A DNA stretch of 34,004 nucleotides from Candidatus Spechtbacteria bacterium RIFCSPHIGHO2_02_FULL_43_15b (GTDB taxonomy: Bacteria; Patescibacteriota; Minisyncoccia; Spechtbacterales; HO2-43-30): the NCBI GenBank assembly GCA_001819985.1, contig MHOE01000034.1, forward strand, positions 8,606 to 42,609. Reading direction: 5' to 3'. Made by a program: the position numbers and the translations under genes. The notes beneath the pieces were generated by a model. That model searched no databases, was not told the DNA's origin, and saw only the letters and a list, made by a program, of their open reading frames with translations. Below are positions 9,699 through 20,440 of this stretch, one piece after another. The first letter of the stretch is position 1. Each line of letters starts with the position of its first letter.

Positions 9699-12600
9699 AT
9701 GAGAAATTTATTTTCGAGTAAAAATAGAATAGTGGTTTTGGTATGCATCCTCGGTCTGTTGTCGGTTTTTTTGGTGGCCTTTGTTCTTAATTTGATCGGA
9801 GGAATGAGGACAAAATCCATGACGCCGCTCCCTCATATCGGAGCGGGTGCGTTTCATATTGAGGCAACTTTGTCTGATTCCGGAGGCGCCGATCCGGAAA
9901 CTCATTTTATTTTGTACGCAAAAAATAAGGTTAGCGAAGGGGATGTCGAAAAAATATTGAAATTTGAACCTGATGTTAAGTTTTCCGCGAAGAAAATCGC
10001 CGAATTAAAAATCGGAGATTTTGCATTTGCGGCGGATACAGAGCTGGCGCTTGATCCGCGAGTCGAGATAGTGCCACTGGAGAAACTGGAAACGGACAGG
10101 ATATACAAAGCCGTTATAAGCGATATTGAAGAAGCGAAAATAGATAGACCGTATAGCTTCGCATTTCAGATTAAATCGCCCTTTCAAGTTGTCGAAACAT
10201 ATCCCAGAAACGAAGCCGCTTATGTGCCGCTAAATTCGGGCATCGAAATCACATTCAGCAGAGAAAACACTAATGATATCGAAAAATTTTTTGAAATTGA
10301 CCCGGATACGGAGGGTACTTTTGAAAGGCGCGGAAGAACTGTGGTTTTTATGCCCAAGTCGCTTCTAGAAAAAACAATTTATAGGGTTACCGTTAAAAAT
10401 GGTCTTGGAGTAACCGGGAGCAACGATAAACTTGCGGAAGATTTCTCATTTGTTTTTGAAACCGGCGAAGGGCGATACACGGGTTCACGCCCATCATTCG
10501 ATTTTTCCGGTGATTTTATTGAGTATATGCCGGGGGTTAAACCTGTTTTTTCAGTATCGTACTACGGTATAAATCCCAAGAATCTTAATATAGATGTTTA
10601 CAAGTTTAATGACAATAACGAATTCGTGGACTCGTATTTGAAAAGTAGAAATTGGAAATACGGATGGGCTTATTATCATGTTCGAGATGCGTCAAGCGCG
10701 TACGAACCTAATAAAAATCAGCGAATCCTTTCATTCAGCCCAAGCATAATAAAGTCCGGCTATCAAGAATTTATTGAAATACCCCAAGTTCTGGATGAAG
10801 GTTATTACCTTCTGGATGTTTCGATATCGGGTAGGAAAGAGCAGGCGTGGCTTCAAATAACTCCGATATCGCATTATAATTCGATCACTCACGACTCAAG
10901 TATTATATGGACTTACGATTTTTTGGATAAAGAACCAATTGCGGGGGCTAGCGTGATATTTTTGGATTCAGGCAATAGTCCGGCTGAAACAAAGGTCGGA
11001 ACAACAGACAGCGACGGCCTGTTACAGTTCAAAACCCCGCGATCGCTTCAGCGGGAGAATTATGATAATTCCGCGTCCCCAAGATTTTTGAAGATTAGCG
11101 CCGGCGGCACAGCGCCTGCTTATGTGAAAGTCGCCGATAGTTGGGGTTATGGCTATGGGGCCTCAAAAGGCGATGAATTTTGGGATTATATCGCAACAGA
11201 CAGGTACGCTTACCAGATGAATGACATTGTGAGGTACTGGGGTGTTTTGAAGGGCAGAGATATGGACTTGCGGCAAAAATTGGTTGAGGTCGGAATTTAC
11301 GAAGGGTACTCATACTATTATGACGAAGGGGGACTTTATTCATCGGACAAAAAGCCGCTAGTAAGCGAGAAAATTCTTGTCTCTCAATTCGACACAATAG
11401 AGGGCGGGCTTAGTTTTGAGGGCATTGCCCCGGGTTTTTACAGTGTTTATGTGAAGTTCAACGGTAAGACGATTTCATCATCAACCATTCAGATATTAAC
11501 TTACGCAAAACCGGCTTACCAAATCATAGTTACACCTTCGAAACGCGCCATGTTTGCGGGAGAAGATGTAACCTTCGATGTATCGGCAAAATTTTTTGAT
11601 GGCACTCCCGTTTCAAATCTTTTGTTAAAATATTCCGGATATTGGAATTCGTCATTTACGGGCGAGATAAGGTTGGATAAAGACGGCATAGGAAAGTTTT
11701 ACTTCAAAACTTCTTATATTAGGGATGAATACTCGTATTATCCAACATATTATCCAAAAAGTTTAATCGTGAATTTCACTCCGAAACTCGAAGAAGAGGG
11801 CGAGGTGATAAGCAGGGGAAGTGTGCTTGTATTCGGTCCCGATATGTACCTACAGTCATTTTCCAAGAAAACCGGCGCGGATTCCTATATGTTCACGGCT
11901 AAGTTAAATAAAATTGTTATTTCGGGCAAGGAAAATTCTGAAGATTACTGGAGGAATGAATACATAGGAGATCCCGTTATGGGTCATCCGTTAAGCGCGA
12001 AAATTACAAAGATAACCTACGATAAAAGAGAAACCGGAGAATATTATGATCATATAAATAAGATTGTGCGGAAAATCTACGAATACGAAAGAAAGGAAAC
12101 TGTAATTGAGAATGTGTCCGGCTCTGTCAATTCGCAGGGAGAGTGGATCTTTACAAGGAATTTTCCACAAGAAGAGGGATCTCATTATGTAATATATTTC
12201 TCGGGCAAAGATTCGGTCGGTAGAAACATATCGAGCTCTTCGTATGCGTCATTTTATTCGTCATACAGCGCGTGGAAAAACTTCGCTGTGGCTTTGAGTA
12301 TAGGCGGGGAATCATTTTCAAAAGAATTCTCTCTTGGCGAGGATATAAACCTTGAGCTAAAAATAACTGAAGGAGAAAAACCGCAAAATCCCAAAGTTTT
12401 GTTTTACAGATTCCAAAACAGCATTGATGAAGCTCGCGTAGTTTCAGGAATGAATCTCCACGAGATTTTCGTAAAAGAATTTTCTCCGTCGGTGCAGTAC
12501 AGGGCTGTGATATTAAGCCCGTTTGGATTTGAGGAATCAAACAGTATAAACGCGGCGTTTAAGGAAAGAGACAATAATCTAAACATAGAAATAAATTCCG

Positions 12601-15161
12601 GAAAAGAAAAATACAGGCCGGGCGAAGAAATCCAAATTGATTTTTCAGTAAAAGACGAATCCGGGAATCCGATGTCCGCGGAGTTGAATGTTTCAATTAT
12701 TGACGAGGCGATTTTTCATATACTGCCATATAATTGGCAAAAAAGAATTCTAGGGACTTTATACAGGGATTTATACACTAATCCAATATCAAATACTTCG
12801 GAATATGTGAAACTCGATGAGAATTCAAGTGCGTCAGGAGGGGCTGAAATGGGCGGATGTTTTACGAGAGGTACGCCAGTTCTTATGGAAGGTGGAAACT
12901 TAAAATCAATAGAGGAGGTTAGGGTTGGCGATGTGGTTCTGACTTTCGAAGGCGAAAATTCAAAAAAACTTGTTCCAGCGATAGTTCAGGGAGTATCAAG
13001 TCATACCGTTGACGCGTTTTTGGTGATAAATGGTTCGCTTGAAGTTACGCATGAGCACAGATTATTCGTTAACGGCAATTGGGAATACGCAGGCAATGTA
13101 AAGCTAGGAGATCGGCTTAGGGATGCAGGTGGTAAAAGTCAGATAATTTCTTCCATAATGGAAAAACAGGCGCAAAATACGGTTGTTTACAATATAATGG
13201 TTGATAATCAACATACTTATTTTGCCGGCGGCTATTTCGTACACAATCAAGAAAAGGGAGGAGGCCCTTCTAGGTCTAATTTTGTAGATATTGCGCTTTT
13301 TGAAACGGTTCGCGCTAATTCCTCCGGAAAAGCAAGTGTTAAATTTAACGCTCCGGACAACATAACGGCGTGGCGAGTTACAGCGCGCGCTTTTGAGTCC
13401 AAGGAAATAAAAGCCGGAGAAAAGATAGAACTGGTTGAAACCTCCTTGCCTTTCTTTGTGGACGCTACTATGAATAGCACCTATCTGGTTGGAGATGAGC
13501 CGATTATCCGTTTGCGATCTTTCGGCGACGAGTACGATCCCAATAGGGGTGTTGATTTTCGATTAGGCGTGGATGACGAGGTTAATGGCGATTTTGGTAT
13601 CGGCGCTGTTTTTATGCCGTTAAAAAATTTCGGCATATTTCAGGAGGGAGAACACGAGCTATTTATTTCCGCGAAACAAGGGAATCTCGAGGACTCAATA
13701 ATTCGGAAGGTTAATTTTGTAAAGAGCTACTTCAAGAAAGGGGGATCGTCAACATACGCGCTATCGGAAGATTTGACGGATATAAAAGGGAATAAATACG
13801 GGAGCACTATGCTCGTTTTCGCGGATGCGGGGCGTGGTAAATTTTACCCTACGCTTTGGAACAATGCTTTAATCCATGGCATTCGGGCAGATCAACTCGC
13901 GGCTAAGTATTTTGGCGAAGAATTATTATCTCGATATTTTGACGATGCGAAGCCGGATGAATCGCTTGATTTAAGCGGCTATCAAACACCGGAAGGCGCA
14001 ATAGCGCTTTTCCCTTACGGAGACAGCGATATTGAAGTGACTTCAAAGATGGCGGATTTAGCCCCGGAATTTATTTTCAGGGAACGCGTAAAGGCATACT
14101 TGAACAAATCTCTCGAAGATAAAAAATCAGATATAGGCCGCGCGGCAAAAGCTCTTTACGGACTTGCTAGTTTAGGTGAGCCGGTGCTTACGAAAATAAA
14201 TTCAATAAAAGCAAGCGGCGAGCTTGGGTTCGAAGATGGAATTTATATTGCTCTTTCCTTAGCTAAAATAGGCGATAAAGAGTCGGCAAGAATCATCTAC
14301 GAAAATGATATAAGGCCAAATTTGCGGTTTGATGGGAAAGAAGCATGGCTTTCTAGTGAGGACGATATGACAAGGCGAGTTAAGCTGACTGCGACCATTT
14401 CGGTGCTTTCTTCATATCTTATGTTGAGCGAAGACAGCGCTTCGTTGTGGAACTACATAAAAAGCCATGATCCCGAAAAAGACCTTGATGTATTGGAAGA
14501 AACGCTTTTTATGAAGTCCGAACTCGAAAATTCAAAGGATAACGAGGCAAAGTTTTCTTATAGAATAGACGACGAGCGGGAAGAAAGGGTGACTCTTGAA
14601 AAGGGAAAGTCCCGTAAAATAAATGTTTTTGAAGATGAGCTTAAGAAGATTCGTTTTTCCGATGTGCACGGGAATATATCCGTTATGAGCTTATACCAGA
14701 CGAGCGTAGAGCCGAACGAACTCGTAAGAAATGACGAGTTAAGTTTGCGAAGAGAGTATAGAGTGAACGGCCAGAAACTTAACTCTTTCAATGAGGGCGA
14801 TGTTGTTATGGTGCGGCTAGATCCGGACATCGCCAAAAGCGCTATCGACGGCGTTTACCAGGTGATTGATTATTTGCCTAGCGGGCTTAAGCCCGCGACA
14901 AGGGTATATGAAACTGGGTTATCGAATGAGAGGAATGATTGCAATATCATATGGTATCCTTCCAAAATCGTGAACAGCACAGTTTACTTCACAATTAACA
15001 AAGAGTTTGACAATAGCGCGTATTGCCAAAATAGAACGATAAATTATTACGCTCGGGTCGTTTCGAAGGGTAAATACACGGCAAACCCCGCGATAATTCA
15101 ATCATTGAAAAATTTGAATAGTTTGAATATTTCAAGAGAGGATGTGGTGGAAATAAGGTAG
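9699..15161 (+). CDS. Alpha-2-macroglobulin-like (YfaS/MG-domain) surface protein with an internal Hint domain
   Basis: N-terminal TM anchor; Big_5/MG-like VVETYPRNEAAYVPLNSGIEITFS; A2M core RSNFVDIALFETVRANSSGKASVKFNAPDNITAWRVTARAF; YfaS-like end YQVIDYLPSGLKP. Confidence 0.9.
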   Translation: MRNLFSSKNRIVVLVCILGLLSVFLVAFVLNLIGGMRTKSMTPLPHIGAGAFHIEATLSDSGGADPETHFILYAKNKVSEGDVEKILKFEPDVKFSAKKIAELKIGDFAFAADTELALDPRVEIVPLEKLETDRIYKAVISDIEEAKIDRPYSFAFQIKSPFQVVETYPRNEAAYVPLNSGIEITFSRENTNDIEKFFEIDPDTEGTFERRGRTVVFMPKSLLEKTIYRVTVKNGLGVTGSNDKLAEDFSFVFETGEGRYTGSRPSFDFSGDFIEYMPGVKPVFSVSYYGINPKNLNIDVYKFNDNNEFVDSYLKSRNWKYGWAYYHVRDASSAYEPNKNQRILSFSPSIIKSGYQEFIEIPQVLDEGYYLLDVSISGRKEQAWLQITPISHYNSITHDSSIIWTYDFLDKEPIAGASVIFLDSGNSPAETKVGTTDSDGLLQFKTPRSLQRENYDNSASPRFLKISAGGTAPAYVKVADSWGYGYGASKGDEFWDYIATDRYAYQMNDIVRYWGVLKGRDMDLRQKLVEVGIYEGYSYYYDEGGLYSSDKKPLVSEKILVSQFDTIEGGLSFEGIAPGFYSVYVKFNGKTISSSTIQILTYAKPAYQIIVTPSKRAMFAGEDVTFDVSAKFFDGTPVSNLLLKYSGYWNSSFTGEIRLDKDGIGKFYFKTSYIRDEYSYYPTYYPKSLIVNFTPKLEEEGEVISRGSVLVFGPDMYLQSFSKKTGADSYMFTAKLNKIVISGKENSEDYWRNEYIGDPVMGHPLSAKITKITYDKRETGEYYDHINKIVRKIYEYERKETVIENVSGSVNSQGEWIFTRNFPQEEGSHYVIYFSGKDSVGRNISSSSYASFYSSYSAWKNFAVALSIGGESFSKEFSLGEDINLELKITEGEKPQNPKVLFYRFQNSIDEARVVSGMNLHEIFVKEFSPSVQYRAVILSPFGFEESNSINAAFKERDNNLNIEINSGKEKYRPGEEIQIDFSVKDESGNPMSAELNVSIIDEAIFHILPYNWQKRILGTLYRDLYTNPISNTSEYVKLDENSSASGGAEMGGCFTRGTPVLMEGGNLKSIEEVRVGDVVLTFEGENSKKLVPAIVQGVSSHTVDAFLVINGSLEVTHEHRLFVNGNWEYAGNVKLGDRLRDAGGKSQIISSIMEKQAQNTVVYNIMVDNQHTYFAGGYFVHNQEKGGGPSRSNFVDIALFETVRANSSGKASVKFNAPDNITAWRVTARAFESKEIKAGEKIELVETSLPFFVDATMNSTYLVGDEPIIRLRSFGDEYDPNRGVDFRLGVDDEVNGDFGIGAVFMPLKNFGIFQEGEHELFISAKQGNLEDSIIRKVNFVKSYFKKGGSSTYALSEDLTDIKGNKYGSTMLVFADAGRGKFYPTLWNNALIHGIRADQLAAKYFGEELLSRYFDDAKPDESLDLSGYQTPEGAIALFPYGDSDIEVTSKMADLAPEFIFRERVKAYLNKSLEDKKSDIGRAAKALYGLASLGEPVLTKINSIKASGELGFEDGIYIALSLAKIGDKESARIIYENDIRPNLRFDGKEAWLSSEDDMTRRVKLTATISVLSSYLMLSEDSASLWNYIKSHDPEKDLDVLEETLFMKSELENSKDNEAKFSYRIDDEREERVTLEKGKSRKINVFEDELKKIRFSDVHGNISVMSLYQTSVEPNELVRNDELSLRREYRVNGQKLNSFNEGDVVMVRLDPDIAKSAIDGVYQVIDYLPSGLKPATRVYETGLSNERNDCNIIWYPSKIVNSTVYFTINKEFDNSAYCQNRTINYYARVVSKGKYTANPAIIQSLKNLNSLNISREDVVEIR
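12858..13247 (+). other. Hint (intein/Hedgehog-type autoprocessing) domain inside the A2M-like protein, ~130 aa
   Basis: Block A CFTRGTPVLMEGGNLKSIEEVRVGDVVLT; block B LEVTHEHRLFVNGNW (TxxH); blocks F/G VYNIMVDNQHTYFAGGYFVHN, followed by Gln. Confidence 0.92.
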
Positions 15162-15163
15162 TT

Positions 15164-16945
15164 ATGAAGAGCATTTTTTTCTGGACAATTTTTCTTTCGG
15201 TTGCAACTGGAGCGTTCAGCTCCATTTTTATAGCAGTAAGTTTATCCGATTTTAATACAGATTATTCCGCGGATAGCATTTTGGCTTCACGGGATAGCGA
15301 GTATCGTCACTCCGGTTTTTTCGATTTAGAAAAAGACATACTGCGATATGTGGGATTCCCGTCTTCCCGCATAGAAGGTGCGGGAGAGTACGACGGCTAT
15401 TGGGTTCAGGCGGGTATTACATCGCACCATCTGCCGACAGCATTGCCTTTTATTTCCGAGTTTTATAAAACCATTCAAAATTCAGACGGTCCCCGCGAAA
15501 CATTTGCTATTATAGGGCCAGATCATTTGGAGAAATGCCGCGGAGATGCGGCTGTAACATATCTTGGATATCGTACTCCGTTTGGAGAGTTAAATGTGGA
15601 TAAAGATGCGGTTCGAAACCTTGTTAACGCGGGGGCAACTTTGGATGATGAGTGTTTTGATGGCGAGCATTCAATAGCTGTTCAAACTTTGTTCATAAAA
15701 TACCTTTATCCAAACGCGAAAATCGTGCCTATACTTTTTTCTTCGGACGCGAGCGGCGAATTGGTGGATAAAATAGTCAATTCGCTTTTTTTAAGCCGTG
15801 ATAAGATAGCAGTAATCGGGAGTGTTGATTTTTCACACTATGAAAGTTACGAGCGGGCAAAGGAAATAGACGACGCAAGCGAAAATATGATCAGAAACAT
15901 GGATTGGGAGGGATTCGCGTTAAAACACGCGGATTCTCCGGCATCTTTAGGGGCGGTTATATTATTCTCAAACAAGACAGGCGCAATAAACCCCTTAATT
16001 ATAGGCAGGGCAAATTCGTATGAATTTAATTCTTCCAAAGATAATACTACGGGATATATGAATGCTTTGTTTGCCAACTACAAAAAAACAAAAGGAATCC
16101 TTACTTTAGCGTTTGTAGGAGACATTATGCTGACAAGGAATGTCGGGAAAAAAATCGAGGAATCGGGCGATTGGCGATGGCCATTTCTTAAAATAGGCGA
16201 TTATTTAAGAAGCGCGGATTTGACTTTTGGCAACCTCGAGACGACAATTTCGGAGCGGGGGCATAATGTGGGGAGCATTTATTCATTTAGGTCCAATCCA
16301 AAAGTGATTGAAGGGCTTTTATTCGCAGGGTTTGATTTTTTGTCCGTGGCTAATAATCATATGGGCGACTGGACAAGAACCGCATTTGAGGACACCTTTA
16401 ACATTCTTAAAGCAAACGGCATAGGATATGTGGGCGGGGGTTTCAGCGAAAAAGAGGCGCACAGCGCGAAAGCGCGCGAGATTAGCGGAATAAAATTCGG
16501 ATTTCTTGGCTACACCGATCTTGGAGCGAAATATACTGAAGCTAAGGGCGACATATCCGGCATCGCGTGGTCAAGCAAAGAGACGATAGAACGCGATGTT
16601 AAAGAGGCAAAAAATACCAGCGATTTCGTTGTTGTTTCTATTCACTTTGGCGAAGAATACAAAACTTCATCAAACGCGCGTCAAAAAATTCTAGCGCGCG
16701 CCGCAGTTGATGCAGGCGCGTCTTTGGTTATAGGACATCATCCGCATGTCATTCAAGAGATTGAAGAATATAATGGAGGTTACATTGCATACAGTTTGGG
16801 GAATTTTATTTTCGACCAAAATTTTTCCGAAGAAACAATGGAGGGTTTGATCTTGAAAGTATATGTTAAGAATTCAAAAATACTAAATATGGAGTCCGAA
16901 AAGGTGAATATTTCAGGTGATTTTCAGGCATACTTTAGAGATTAG
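15164..16945 (+). CDS. Fusion of MEMO1/AmmeMemoRadiSam-B-like domain with CapA (PGA_cap) metallophosphatase-like domain
   Basis: N-terminal half: AGITSHHLPTALPF, IIGPDHL, GEHSIAVQTLFIKYL, VDFSHY; C-terminal half: LTLAFVGDIMLTRNVG, FGNLETTIS, SVANNHMGD, IGHHPHVIQ, YSLGNFIFDQ. Confidence 0.9.
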   Translation: MKSIFFWTIFLSVATGAFSSIFIAVSLSDFNTDYSADSILASRDSEYRHSGFFDLEKDILRYVGFPSSRIEGAGEYDGYWVQAGITSHHLPTALPFISEFYKTIQNSDGPRETFAIIGPDHLEKCRGDAAVTYLGYRTPFGELNVDKDAVRNLVNAGATLDDECFDGEHSIAVQTLFIKYLYPNAKIVPILFSSDASGELVDKIVNSLFLSRDKIAVIGSVDFSHYESYERAKEIDDASENMIRNMDWEGFALKHADSPASLGAVILFSNKTGAINPLIIGRANSYEFNSSKDNTTGYMNALFANYKKTKGILTLAFVGDIMLTRNVGKKIEESGDWRWPFLKIGDYLRSADLTFGNLETTISERGHNVGSIYSFRSNPKVIEGLLFAGFDFLSVANNHMGDWTRTAFEDTFNILKANGIGYVGGGFSEKEAHSAKAREISGIKFGFLGYTDLGAKYTEAKGDISGIAWSSKETIERDVKEAKNTSDFVVVSIHFGEEYKTSSNARQKILARAAVDAGASLVIGHHPHVIQEIEEYNGGYIAYSLGNFIFDQNFSEETMEGLILKVYVKNSKILNMESEKVNISGDFQAYFRD

Positions 16946-17013: not shown

Positions 17014-17042
17014 TTGACAATATATTCAAATGGAGCTATAAT
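17014..17042 (+). promoter_or_regulatory. Consensus sigma70 promoter
   Basis: TTGACA - exactly 17 nt - TATAAT. Confidence 0.85.
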
Positions 17043-17557: not shown

Positions 17558-20440
17558 ATGAACAGCGTCGGACAACGCCTTAGGGATGCTTTATGGTTTT
17601 TCCCATTAGACAAGTTTATTATTGTGTTCGGACTTTATGCATTTATGAGCGTTTCCACGCTTTTAATTAGGGGAACGGGCATTTTTAGCGCGCTTCTAGC
17701 GACATTCGGATTTGGCATCGTTTTTTTCGTATTTGCGATAGTGGTAGAGCGTAATACGGGGCTATTTGGCAATGGAATAAGAGATGATAAACCGTTTGCA
17801 TCCCGGTTACTTTTCGGGCCGATAAAAAGATCCGAAAACAAACGCGGTCAAAAACAAACCAATACTGGTGCTAGGGAGCTTGGGGACTTGGCAGTTTTCG
17901 CGCCAAATGTCGAGCCACCTTCGGGAATCGAAGACGAAAATTTCAAACGGCGTATGCGCGTCAACCAGATTGACTCGGCTAGACGCGCGGCTAGAAAAAT
18001 GCACGACAAGGTTATCCATACTGGTCTTTTCGTAGCTGTTTATATGGTTTTGTTCTGGTTTTCCTCTAACAGCATTACGGATTTTTTTACTTCAATCCTT
18101 GGGAGCGGACAATCTTCGCTGGGGGGCACTTTGGCAGGGGGAGGGGACATATCGTTTTCTTCGCCAAGTGAGCTTTTCATTATTGATTGGTTTTTACTGG
18201 TTGTTATATGGATTTTGATTGTTATATATTTCCCCAGGTGGTTTGTGTTCCTGATGCTCATAGCTATTTCAGGAATGCGTATTATGCTTCTGATATTTGG
18301 GGTAATGTCTTCAGCGTGGGTTATGAATATCGCAATGTTGCCGGTATTCTACATGGTGATGATGGTTTTTTTCTTCGGCAGTATTATGTGGCCGTTTCTT
18401 CAGCAAATCAAATATTTCAGGCCGGGAGACGCGTCGTGGGGGACGCCAAAGGGTTCTATGCGGGGTCAGCCCGAGGTAAGAGCAACGGTTGAAACGGAGT
18501 TGGCGAAATTCAGCGATTACATACAAGGTAAAAGCAAACGCCAGCCTACCCGCGGGATGATTTTCGAGGGTCCTCCGGGCACGGGGAAGACCCTATACGC
18601 TAAAGAAATCGCTACGGAATATAATATTCCGTTTGTTCTTGCCGACGGGGCCGCTTTTAGCGGTGTGCCTCTTCCTAACCTTGTGATGAAGTATATAGAA
18701 TGGCGGACGAATTCTCTCGCGGATGAATATGGAGGAGTCGTATTCTTTATAGACGAGGCGGAACTTCTTCTTGGGGCGCGTCAGGGCATGGGTTCAGGCG
18801 GCCCTGCAATCGGATACGGAAAAATCCGCGATGTATGGGACCTTTTGCCGTATGACCGTATCGGAGCAACATCGAGTTGCGGGGTTTCATATGATTCATC
18901 CGCGACAAGGGAGCGTTTCTGGGGACTAAAAGAGCCAGCATATCTCGCTGATGAAAAAAAGATTCAGACCCACCCCTTTTTTATGCCAGTAGGGATGGGC
19001 GGCGGATCGTCAGGAGCTATTTACCCGTTCTTGACATGGCTTCAGGGCACCGGGTCACCCGGATTTTCGAGTACATTTAAGCGGCGGATTGTGAACGATT
19101 TGCTCGATGGTCTTTTTATTCCATCCAACATTCCCGGCACTCAAAAAGTTTTGCGTTTACCTCCGGCAAGACCCAAGCATCGGACAATTCTTTTTATCGG
19201 CGCGACAAACCGGGCTTTTATGATCGACCCCGCGATTCGTCGTCCGGGACGCATGGGCGTACCGGTAAGATTCAAGACCCCGGACTTTGAATCGAGAAAG
19301 GATATCATCAATCTGTATTTTACCAAAGTAAATAAAGACGGATTATTGCGCCCAGAACTGATGGCAGATGAAGTGATTGATGAATTCGCTCGGGCGACAG
19401 GCGGCATGAGCCCAGCTGAAATAGAAGCATCTATAAACACCGCTTACGATGTTCGCGGCACTCATATAAAAAACTTGTTGCGCATAAAGGGTTTGCTGGG
19501 TAAAGGTGTCATTTTCGACAATCTTCTCGAGAGTGATCGCAAGTATTGGCTTCGACATAAAGATGAACTGGATAGTGCCGATTGGGACGACGACAGGGCG
19601 GATATGCGTTCTCTTCTCGAAGCAAGAAATGCTCTTATTTACGGAAAGGCTGATCCCGGACTAACCACGGGACAACACCGGGAGCAAACCGCGATTCATG
19701 AATACTGGGGGCATTTCCTTACGCTCAAAGCCGCTCTTGGCGATGTGATTCGGCCGTCTGTTATTTCAGTTATGCCACGGGGTAACGCGCTGGGAATGAT
19801 TTCTCATATACCCGTAGAAGAACGCGACCCAAAGCCGCAACATTACTATAAGGGACTGTTGCGGGTATCTATGGGTTCAATAGTCGCAGAGAGATTTTTC
19901 TTTGGAGAGAACCAGCCGGGCGTTTCAAGCGATTTGGATAACGCGACACGCATCGCGTGTTTTATAGTTCGCAGGGCGGGGATGGGTCCGTACGCATGTG
20001 GCGCGGAGGAGAGAAAGAAATTTGCCGAGTTGGGCGAAACGCTTATAGCTGTTACCGATTCCGGAATGGCTATGCTCAATCCATTTGCCCAGGATTTCGT
20101 GGAAAAGACGCTTGCGGATCCAAGTTCTCACGAGAGGGTAGCGGTTATGCTTGGCCAGGCGTTTGTTGATGACTACCGACTTATTCGCGCTAATGTACTT
20201 AAAGATTACGCATTTCATAGCGGTGTTGTTTCAGAGCTTCTCCGCTTAGAGGAATTGGGCGGTTCGAAACTCGAAGATATATGGAGTAAGCTCGGAGATA
20301 TTTTGGTTACATGGAACAATATGAGCGAGGAAATGGTTTCCTGGTGGCCCGATAGGATCGTGGAACTGGAAAATTATTTCTATAATCCTTATCGTAAATC
20401 CGAATCAGACGAAGTGCTTGAAGGGGTATCGAAAGTATGA
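17558..20440 (+). CDS. Divergent FtsH-like membrane AAA+ metalloprotease
   Basis: Polytopic N-terminus; Walker A GPPGTGKT; Walker B VVFFIDEAE; SRH GATNRAFMIDPAIRRPGRM; zinc motif HEYWGH; third-ligand region GVSSDLDNATRIA...RRAGMG, as in FtsH. Confidence 0.88.
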   Translation: MNSVGQRLRDALWFFPLDKFIIVFGLYAFMSVSTLLIRGTGIFSALLATFGFGIVFFVFAIVVERNTGLFGNGIRDDKPFASRLLFGPIKRSENKRGQKQTNTGARELGDLAVFAPNVEPPSGIEDENFKRRMRVNQIDSARRAARKMHDKVIHTGLFVAVYMVLFWFSSNSITDFFTSILGSGQSSLGGTLAGGGDISFSSPSELFIIDWFLLVVIWILIVIYFPRWFVFLMLIAISGMRIMLLIFGVMSSAWVMNIAMLPVFYMVMMVFFFGSIMWPFLQQIKYFRPGDASWGTPKGSMRGQPEVRATVETELAKFSDYIQGKSKRQPTRGMIFEGPPGTGKTLYAKEIATEYNIPFVLADGAAFSGVPLPNLVMKYIEWRTNSLADEYGGVVFFIDEAELLLGARQGMGSGGPAIGYGKIRDVWDLLPYDRIGATSSCGVSYDSSATRERFWGLKEPAYLADEKKIQTHPFFMPVGMGGGSSGAIYPFLTWLQGTGSPGFSSTFKRRIVNDLLDGLFIPSNIPGTQKVLRLPPARPKHRTILFIGATNRAFMIDPAIRRPGRMGVPVRFKTPDFESRKDIINLYFTKVNKDGLLRPELMADEVIDEFARATGGMSPAEIEASINTAYDVRGTHIKNLLRIKGLLGKGVIFDNLLESDRKYWLRHKDELDSADWDDDRADMRSLLEARNALIYGKADPGLTTGQHREQTAIHEYWGHFLTLKAALGDVIRPSVISVMPRGNALGMISHIPVEERDPKPQHYYKGLLRVSMGSIVAERFFFGENQPGVSSDLDNATRIACFIVRRAGMGPYACGAEERKKFAELGETLIAVTDSGMAMLNPFAQDFVEKTLADPSSHERVAVMLGQAFVDDYRLIRANVLKDYAFHSGVVSELLRLEELGGSKLEDIWSKLGDILVTWNNMSEEMVSWWPDRIVELENYFYNPYRKSESDEVLEGVSKV

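Follow-up and report, generated by a model that had tools for sequence, protein, structure and literature searches.

A Hint domain of bacterial-intein-like type predicted in the bait loop of alpha-2-macroglobulin-family proteins of Patescibacteria

The locus and its A2M-family protein

The window, that is the whole stretch of 34,004 nucleotides analyzed here, carries on its + strand an open reading frame encoding a Hint-containing surface protein of the alpha-2-macroglobulin (A2M) family (9699..15161, 1820 aa), recognized from the ORF translation, Pfam and a fold search. A hydrophobic N-terminal segment read off the sequence, VVLVCILGLLSVFLVAFVLNLIGG (9732..9800, +), is a probable membrane anchor. 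Membership of the A2M family relies on the bait-region domain and the PF00207 core, which flank the bait loop of the protein. In a Pfam search of the whole ORF the upstream part of the bait-region domain (A2M_BRD, PF07703; aa 875-1007; 12321..12719, +) scored 23.0 bits against a cut-off of 22.7 just upstream of the Hint domain, and the A2M core (PF00207; aa 1200-1270; 13296..13508, +) was above cut-off (E 6e-8) just downstream of it. Big_5 was also above cut-off, and bMG10 and bMG3 were under it. Alignment to the PYGCxEQ of other homologues puts GIRADQ (13878..13895, +) where the thioester motif is expected, and CxEQ is absent from the TED of the window protein and of its subfamily, which therefore have no TED thioester. 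Since A2M proteins without a thioester exist, the window protein stays an A2M by its other features. It resembles the bacterial A2Ms of E. coli (YfhM/ECAM) and Salmonella in its MG domains, bait-region domain, PF00207, probable anchor and bait place, and differs from them in carrying a Hint domain in the bait, in lacking CxEQ and in having a MEMO1-family neighbor rather than PBP1C.

This neighbor, a MEMO1-family (TIGR04336) and PGA_cap fusion (15164..16945, +), starts 2 nt past the A2M stop and is a conserved companion of A2M. Among the 75 A2M loci, Hint-bearing and Hint-less, that left room to tell, 48 had, as the very next gene in the same orientation, one of the MEMO1 family (TIGR04336, AmmeMemoRadiSam system protein B); the linkage goes with A2M and not with the Hint. 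The PBP1C linkage known for E. coli A2M was not found at the loci of the window-like homologues (group A, see below). A cluster of ~200-aa proteins is common to 17 A2M loci (including L050, L059, L063 and L068), and its members at L050 and L059 resemble ECF sigma factors by eye. The window ORF gave the sole A2M-core match and the sole PT-HINT match of the whole genome (939 kb in 34 contigs, estimated 100% complete), which its relatives place in Patescibacteria/CPR. The GC content of the Hint is 0.408 versus 0.418 for the gene, and 0.346 versus 0.428 at third positions. A promoter and terminator scan revealed nothing special at the A2M gene. A perfect sigma-70-like TTGACA-17-TATAAT is present at 17014-17042, upstream of an AAA+M41 (FtsH-like) gene at 17558.

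The Hint domain and its position

The Hint, a type-A BIL-like autoprocessing domain of 130 aa (aa 1054-1183; 12858..13247, +) identified by PT-HINT, homologues and a structural model, reads CFTRGTPVLM...VTHEH...YFVHN. It is preceded by the Gly-rich linker SASGGAEMGG (12828..12857, +), which has low pLDDT and includes the presumably ancestral bait motif GAExGG seen in Hint-less relatives. Its first residue, Cys1 (C1054; 12858..12860, +), is the predicted nucleophile of an N-S acyl shift and is invariant in the homologues (51/51 plus L171). Block B holds the TxxH motif (T1117-H1120; 13047..13058, +), and the domain ends with the invariant His-Asn pair (H1182-N1183; 13242..13247, +) predicted to support Asn cyclization. 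The C-terminal linker, QEKGGGPSR (13248..13274, +), has Gln at +1 and the conserved Lys at +3, and the sequence RSNFVDIALFE begins at nt 13272, after the Hint. The first-pass annotation had reported a complete Hint here with the same flanks and the same start of the core, and all its coordinates were right in the ORF translation. The profile searches that it suggested put PT-HINT, PF00207 and A2M_BRD all above cut-off on the ORF, PT-HINT (PF07591) with E 1.9e-11 and 44.8 bits against a cut-off of 27.7. Among Pfam families PT-HINT fits the window Hint best, and 47 of the 47 members scanned match it.

Modelled alone, the Hint reached a pLDDT of 96.6. The nearest solved folds were BIL2 of Tetrahymena (6Y75, TM 0.91) and a BIL of C. 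thermocellum (2LWY, TM 0.89), while inteins (TM ~0.69-0.81) and Hedgehog (TM 0.72-0.80) were more distant. 2LWY was also the top PDB sequence match in a profile search (E 5e-19). With BIL structures nearest by sequence and by predicted fold, the Hint classifies as a BIL-type domain. The initial reading had offered BIL-like or Hedgehog/pretoxin-style cleavage; the first part stands, and the second does not fit the architectures. Hedgehog Hints are C-terminal, lead into a sterol-recognition region and have no terminal HN. Hedgehog-type processing was rejected because the Hint invariably ends in HN, resembles BIL folds more closely and lies inside its protein, with ~640 aa of A2M after it. Pretoxin processing was rejected as well: PF07591 is the pretoxin HINT family of polymorphic toxins, but the window Hint precedes the A2M core and a TED-like region, with no toxin module downstream.

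The position of the Hint was analyzed with a profile built from 45 homologous segments and searched against PDB sequences. Right behind the Hint, the profile (326, gaReeFkDtA) aligns to residue 704 (7von) or 730 (6tav) of human A2M, which we take to lie just past the bait. The downstream region also aligns to ECAM just after the bait Arg923-Leu942 (chain numberings vary between entries), a stretch that is disordered in that protein (PMC4498604). For C5, the two sides of the Hint fall on different chains, profile 12-168 upstream of it on the beta chain (6rqj_B) and profile 328-491 downstream of it on the alpha chain (6rqj_A), which puts the Hint in the slot of the beta/alpha junction and the anaphylatoxin. 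In an AlphaFold model of aa 859-1420 (pLDDT 84, pTM 0.53) the Hint appears as a confident unit joined to the rest by disordered linkers (model residues 176-193 and 327-331). A Foldseek search with this model returned A2ML1, CD109, C5, C3 and ECAM with low TM-scores, because the relative placement of the domains is uncertain, and these matches consequently back the A2M family and not the exact geometry. Profile and model together indicate that the Hint sits in the linker between the two halves of the A2M bait-bearing region. The bait-equivalent place first proposed for it is thus borne out by the alignment of its downstream flank just past the human bait.

Homologues, empty sites and spread of the Hint

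The homologue search proposed at the outset identified the Hint in the bait loop of at least 51 more distinct proteins; among the matches listed, nearly all belong to Patescibacteria. An arrangement common to 51 other proteins rules out an assembly chimera or chance. Full Hint-A2M matches occurred in 12 of 387 genomes of the class and in 20 of 384 genomes of a phylum sample, the genome of the window being included in both counts; one more match in the sample was cut by a contig end. A GTDB-wide scan with two peptide patterns led to at least about 46 loci with the Hint insertion. The lineages among the matches listed were Doudna-, Portnoy-, Parcu-, Peregrini-, Collier-, Wildermuth-, Moran-, Shapiro-, Levy-, Roizman-, Davies-, Woese-, Peri-, Gottesman- and WWE3 bacteria, together with a candidate WOR-1 record and a record that bears the label Micavibrio.

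Cys1 and the terminal HN are present in 52/52 Hint-A2M proteins (51 aligned plus L171), and a 47-row A3 alignment shows no change in the T and H of TxxH. Among the 51 aligned proteins the Hint measures 128-130 residues and Cys1 is its only Cys in 50. Gly occupies -1 in 51/51 (51/52 with L171) and -2 in 49/51. The absence of Cys, Ser or Thr at +1, pointed out by the first-pass annotation for the window protein, holds for 50 of the 51, which have Gln (15), Asp (15), Glu (12), Ala (5), Gly (2), Ser (1) or Asn (1) at this position and never Cys or Thr; Gln/Asp/Glu account for 42 and Gln/Asp/Glu/Asn for 43. A Lys follows the Hint in 51/51: 38 of them have it at +2 and 13 at +3. L171 has Thr at -1 and Lys at +1, with C1 and HN kept. 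No dead Hint copy was seen among the 52 proteins (L094 was left out owing to masked bases). The bait loop itself varies, but its Gly-rich motif at the insertion point is conserved, as is the host family.

Hint-less A2Ms from Firmicutes, Dehalococcoidia and some CPR carry the motif GAExGG-(E/G)GGxERxDF at the same spot, the filled counterpart being GAExGG-Hint-xxKGGGxR. In group A the loop minus the Hint, counted from a conserved upstream Asp to a downstream Arg, has a median length of 52 residues where the Hint is present and 51 where it is absent (p 0.35 in a Mann-Whitney test, which takes no account of relatedness). In a subfamily apart from group A, the empty L164 reads NTNLGAKGGSGGGGGG...FPETAYW and the filled L083 and L091 read NTNLGAKGGSGG-Hint-QKGGG...FPETAYW, so that all three have NTNLGAKGGSGG before and FPETAYW after the insertion site. 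These proteins cluster with L092 (support 99) on an A2M tree of 100 proteins built by a quick method after removal of the Hint columns. Empty sites with equal flanks and equal loop length indicate that the Hint is a precise insertion. The Lys after the Hint is generally absent at empty sites. Simple inheritance of the +1 Glu from the ancestral bait was dropped for this reason, and the [DEQ]K pair seems instead to travel, or to be selected, with the Hint.

To account for which proteins carry the Hint, the A2M tree needs 10 changes; well-supported branches make at least 5 of these unavoidable. The tree contains two large Hint-bearing groups, A (window-like, with GIRADQ or similar) and B (mostly PYGCxEQ). 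On average, A2M cores are 35% identical inside group A, 34% inside group B and 20% across the two; the corresponding Hint values are 46%, 46% and 43%. As the Hint is far more alike across the groups than the core, it was most likely transferred between these distant A2M subfamilies after their split, apparently always into the bait. Inside each group, Hint distances are correlated with those of the core (Mantel r 0.63 and 0.70, 0/2000 permutations), suggesting that the Hint, once present, is retained for long periods.

A CxEQ-type TED thioester motif was found in 16 of 19 readable group B homologues, and the Hint-less relatives of the window subfamily are also without a TED thioester. There is consequently no support for the Hint as a stand-in for a lost TED thioester, since Hint-less relatives lack it and group B keeps it. 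Six group B proteins of 1527-2093 aa (L045, L086, L087, L092, L097 and L099) contain two Cys only, Cys1 of the Hint and the Cys of the TED. This pattern fits with both Cys being functional, and the sequences give no evidence of a mutual reaction.

Like the type-A BILs CthBIL4 (2LWY) and Tetrahymena BUBL1 BIL2 (6Y75/6TMM), the window Hint combines the common fold with Cys1, TxxH and HN, and has neither a +1 nucleophile nor an endonuclease domain. Published type-A BILs have been described from hypervariable regions of non-conserved proteins (PMC7765530), whereas window-type Hints are fixed in one host family and at one site, the A2M bait, with a near-invariant -1 Gly and a Lys at +2/+3. The class 1 mini-inteins (Mtu RecA, gp41-1) have the same fold, Cys1, TxxH and HN in common with them, and are likewise inserted precisely in a conserved motif, with Hint-less alleles and a patchy distribution. 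Unlike class 1 inteins, window-type Hints are followed by Gln/Asp/Glu/Ala (1 of 51 homologues has Ser), which makes canonical transesterification impossible.

Predicted processing of the bait and its alternatives

To the position, fold, invariant catalytic residues, homologues and empty sites documented above we add an inferred activity, order of steps and product ratio. Every residue required for the N-S shift and for Asn cyclization is in place and strongly constrained, and the Hint is therefore likely to be active; Cys1, HN and the length are kept despite an A2M-core identity of ~35% within and 20% between groups. Most likely, then, the Hint acts as a catalytically competent type-A BIL domain whose processing target is the bait itself. 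In a membrane-anchored A2M its main product would probably be a two-chain protein, one of the possibilities raised by the first-pass annotation, and this reading carries about half of our confidence. After folding, C1054 would attack the carbonyl of G1053 in an N-S acyl shift assisted by TxxH, leading to a thioester that joins the N-half to the Hint; the -1 Gly favors an unhindered thioester. N1183 would cyclize with the assistance of H1182, breaking the chain before Q1184. Because there is no +1 side-chain nucleophile, the thioester would either be hydrolyzed or react with the freed amine, and the Hint would depart from the bait. The main product would be a two-chain A2M whose bait-bearing MG domain is held by strands of both halves, accompanied by some religated single chain as a minor product. 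The predicted tryptic peptides are LDENSSASGGAEMGGQEK for the ligated, LDENSSASGGAEMGGCFTR for the unprocessed and LDENSSASGGAEMGG for the N-cleaved protein. BIL domains without a +1 nucleophile undergo mainly N- and C-cleavage, with some splicing via aminolysis, the type A route being attack of the freed amine on the N-terminal thioester (PMC4031507, PMC7664689); type A has also been said to be unable to ligate (PMC7765530).

Protein ligation, played down by the first-pass annotation, is a serious alternative because of the empty sites and the group B thioester, even if we regard its dominance as the less probable outcome. The Hint would then be an endonuclease-less, intein-like element that cuts itself out and uses the free amine of the C-half to rejoin its flanks, so that an uncut Gly-rich bait (GGAEMGG-QEKGGGPSR) is re-formed, with a small or timing-only effect on the mature protein. 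Hint-less relatives with GAExGG-(E/G)GGxER and equal loop length, the near-matching pair of L164 and L083/L091, and the patchy, intein-like distribution with its 10 tree changes (at least 5 forced) all point this way. Equal loop length (52 vs 51) would not be needed in a permanently cut loop and so argues against the cleavage reading, as does the same Hint in group B, the second Hint-bearing subfamily, where the A2M thioester is retained: bait cleavage normally triggers and spends this thioester (PMC4498604), which makes constitutive bait cutting awkward there. Against dominant ligation stand the missing +1 nucleophile in 50/51 and the published BIL domains with such a +1 residue, which mostly cleave (PMC4031507, PMC7664689). 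Moreover, a selfish endonuclease-less mini-intein should decay, and none was seen dead. Weighing BIL biochemistry against loop length and the group B thioester, we put somewhat more weight on the two-chain product than on ligation, and far less on an inert plug than on either.

We consider it improbable that the Hint remains in the bait as a latent thioester or conditional cutter, freed by a chemical or mechanical change such as protease attack, redox or unfolding. The N-half would in that case move from the Cys1 thioester to a nucleophile, the candidate acceptor being the conserved Lys at +2/+3 or the attacker, or the trap would fire without a protease. Repeated insertion into the one loop whose opening triggers the trap speaks for such a device, as do the invariant Lys after the Hint, generally missing at empty sites, the six thioester-bearing proteins with two Cys only and the loss of the TED thioester in the window subfamily. 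That loss does not, however, follow the presence of the Hint, the Lys may be structural, and we know of no BIL domain that acts as a capture device. Equally doubtful is a self-armed A2M in which a bait-loop Cys1 thioester, instead of or besides that of the TED, would be released when the bait is disturbed, linking the N-half to an amine of the attacker or to the +2/+3 Lys, or firing the trap protease-free. An inert structural plug or protease-resistant spacer would suit the very constant length and the conservation above that of the A2M core, but is very improbable, because all 52 proteins keep the catalytic residues, among them the sole Cys of the Hint, and a plug would need none.

BIL domains have been known since 2003 and, to our knowledge, have no clear physiological role. 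In these proteins they are fixed, always intact, at one decisive place of A2M across Patescibacteria, and since this place, the bait, is what sets off the A2M trap, a role of BIL domains becomes testable. The preferred two-chain product would be comparable to pro-C3 and pro-C5. Complement pro-C3/C4/C5 are cut in trans by furin and convertases and have an anaphylatoxin domain in the bait-equivalent slot. The window protein would similarly have a processed chain and a domain carried in this slot, with the difference that a predicted self-processing enzyme domain fills it, and it may thus represent a bacterial, protease-independent counterpart to C3/C5 processing at the same structural slot. Natural Hints without a +1 nucleophile, with a -1 Gly and a following Lys, could also be useful for protein ligation chemistry. 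No paper joining A2M with a Hint or intein was found in the literature searched, which covered few subscription journals; A2M and Hint are known parts, and their combination, the site specificity and the conserved context appear new as far as tested.

Distant Hints are also found in non-A2M proteins of CPR (L165-L170), one of them in an open frame of 4363 aa (G728). Four of these six (L165, L167, L168 and L169) have Lys at +1, and the Hints of L166 and L170 start with Ser instead of Cys, ahead of a conserved Phe-Leu-Ala-Gly.
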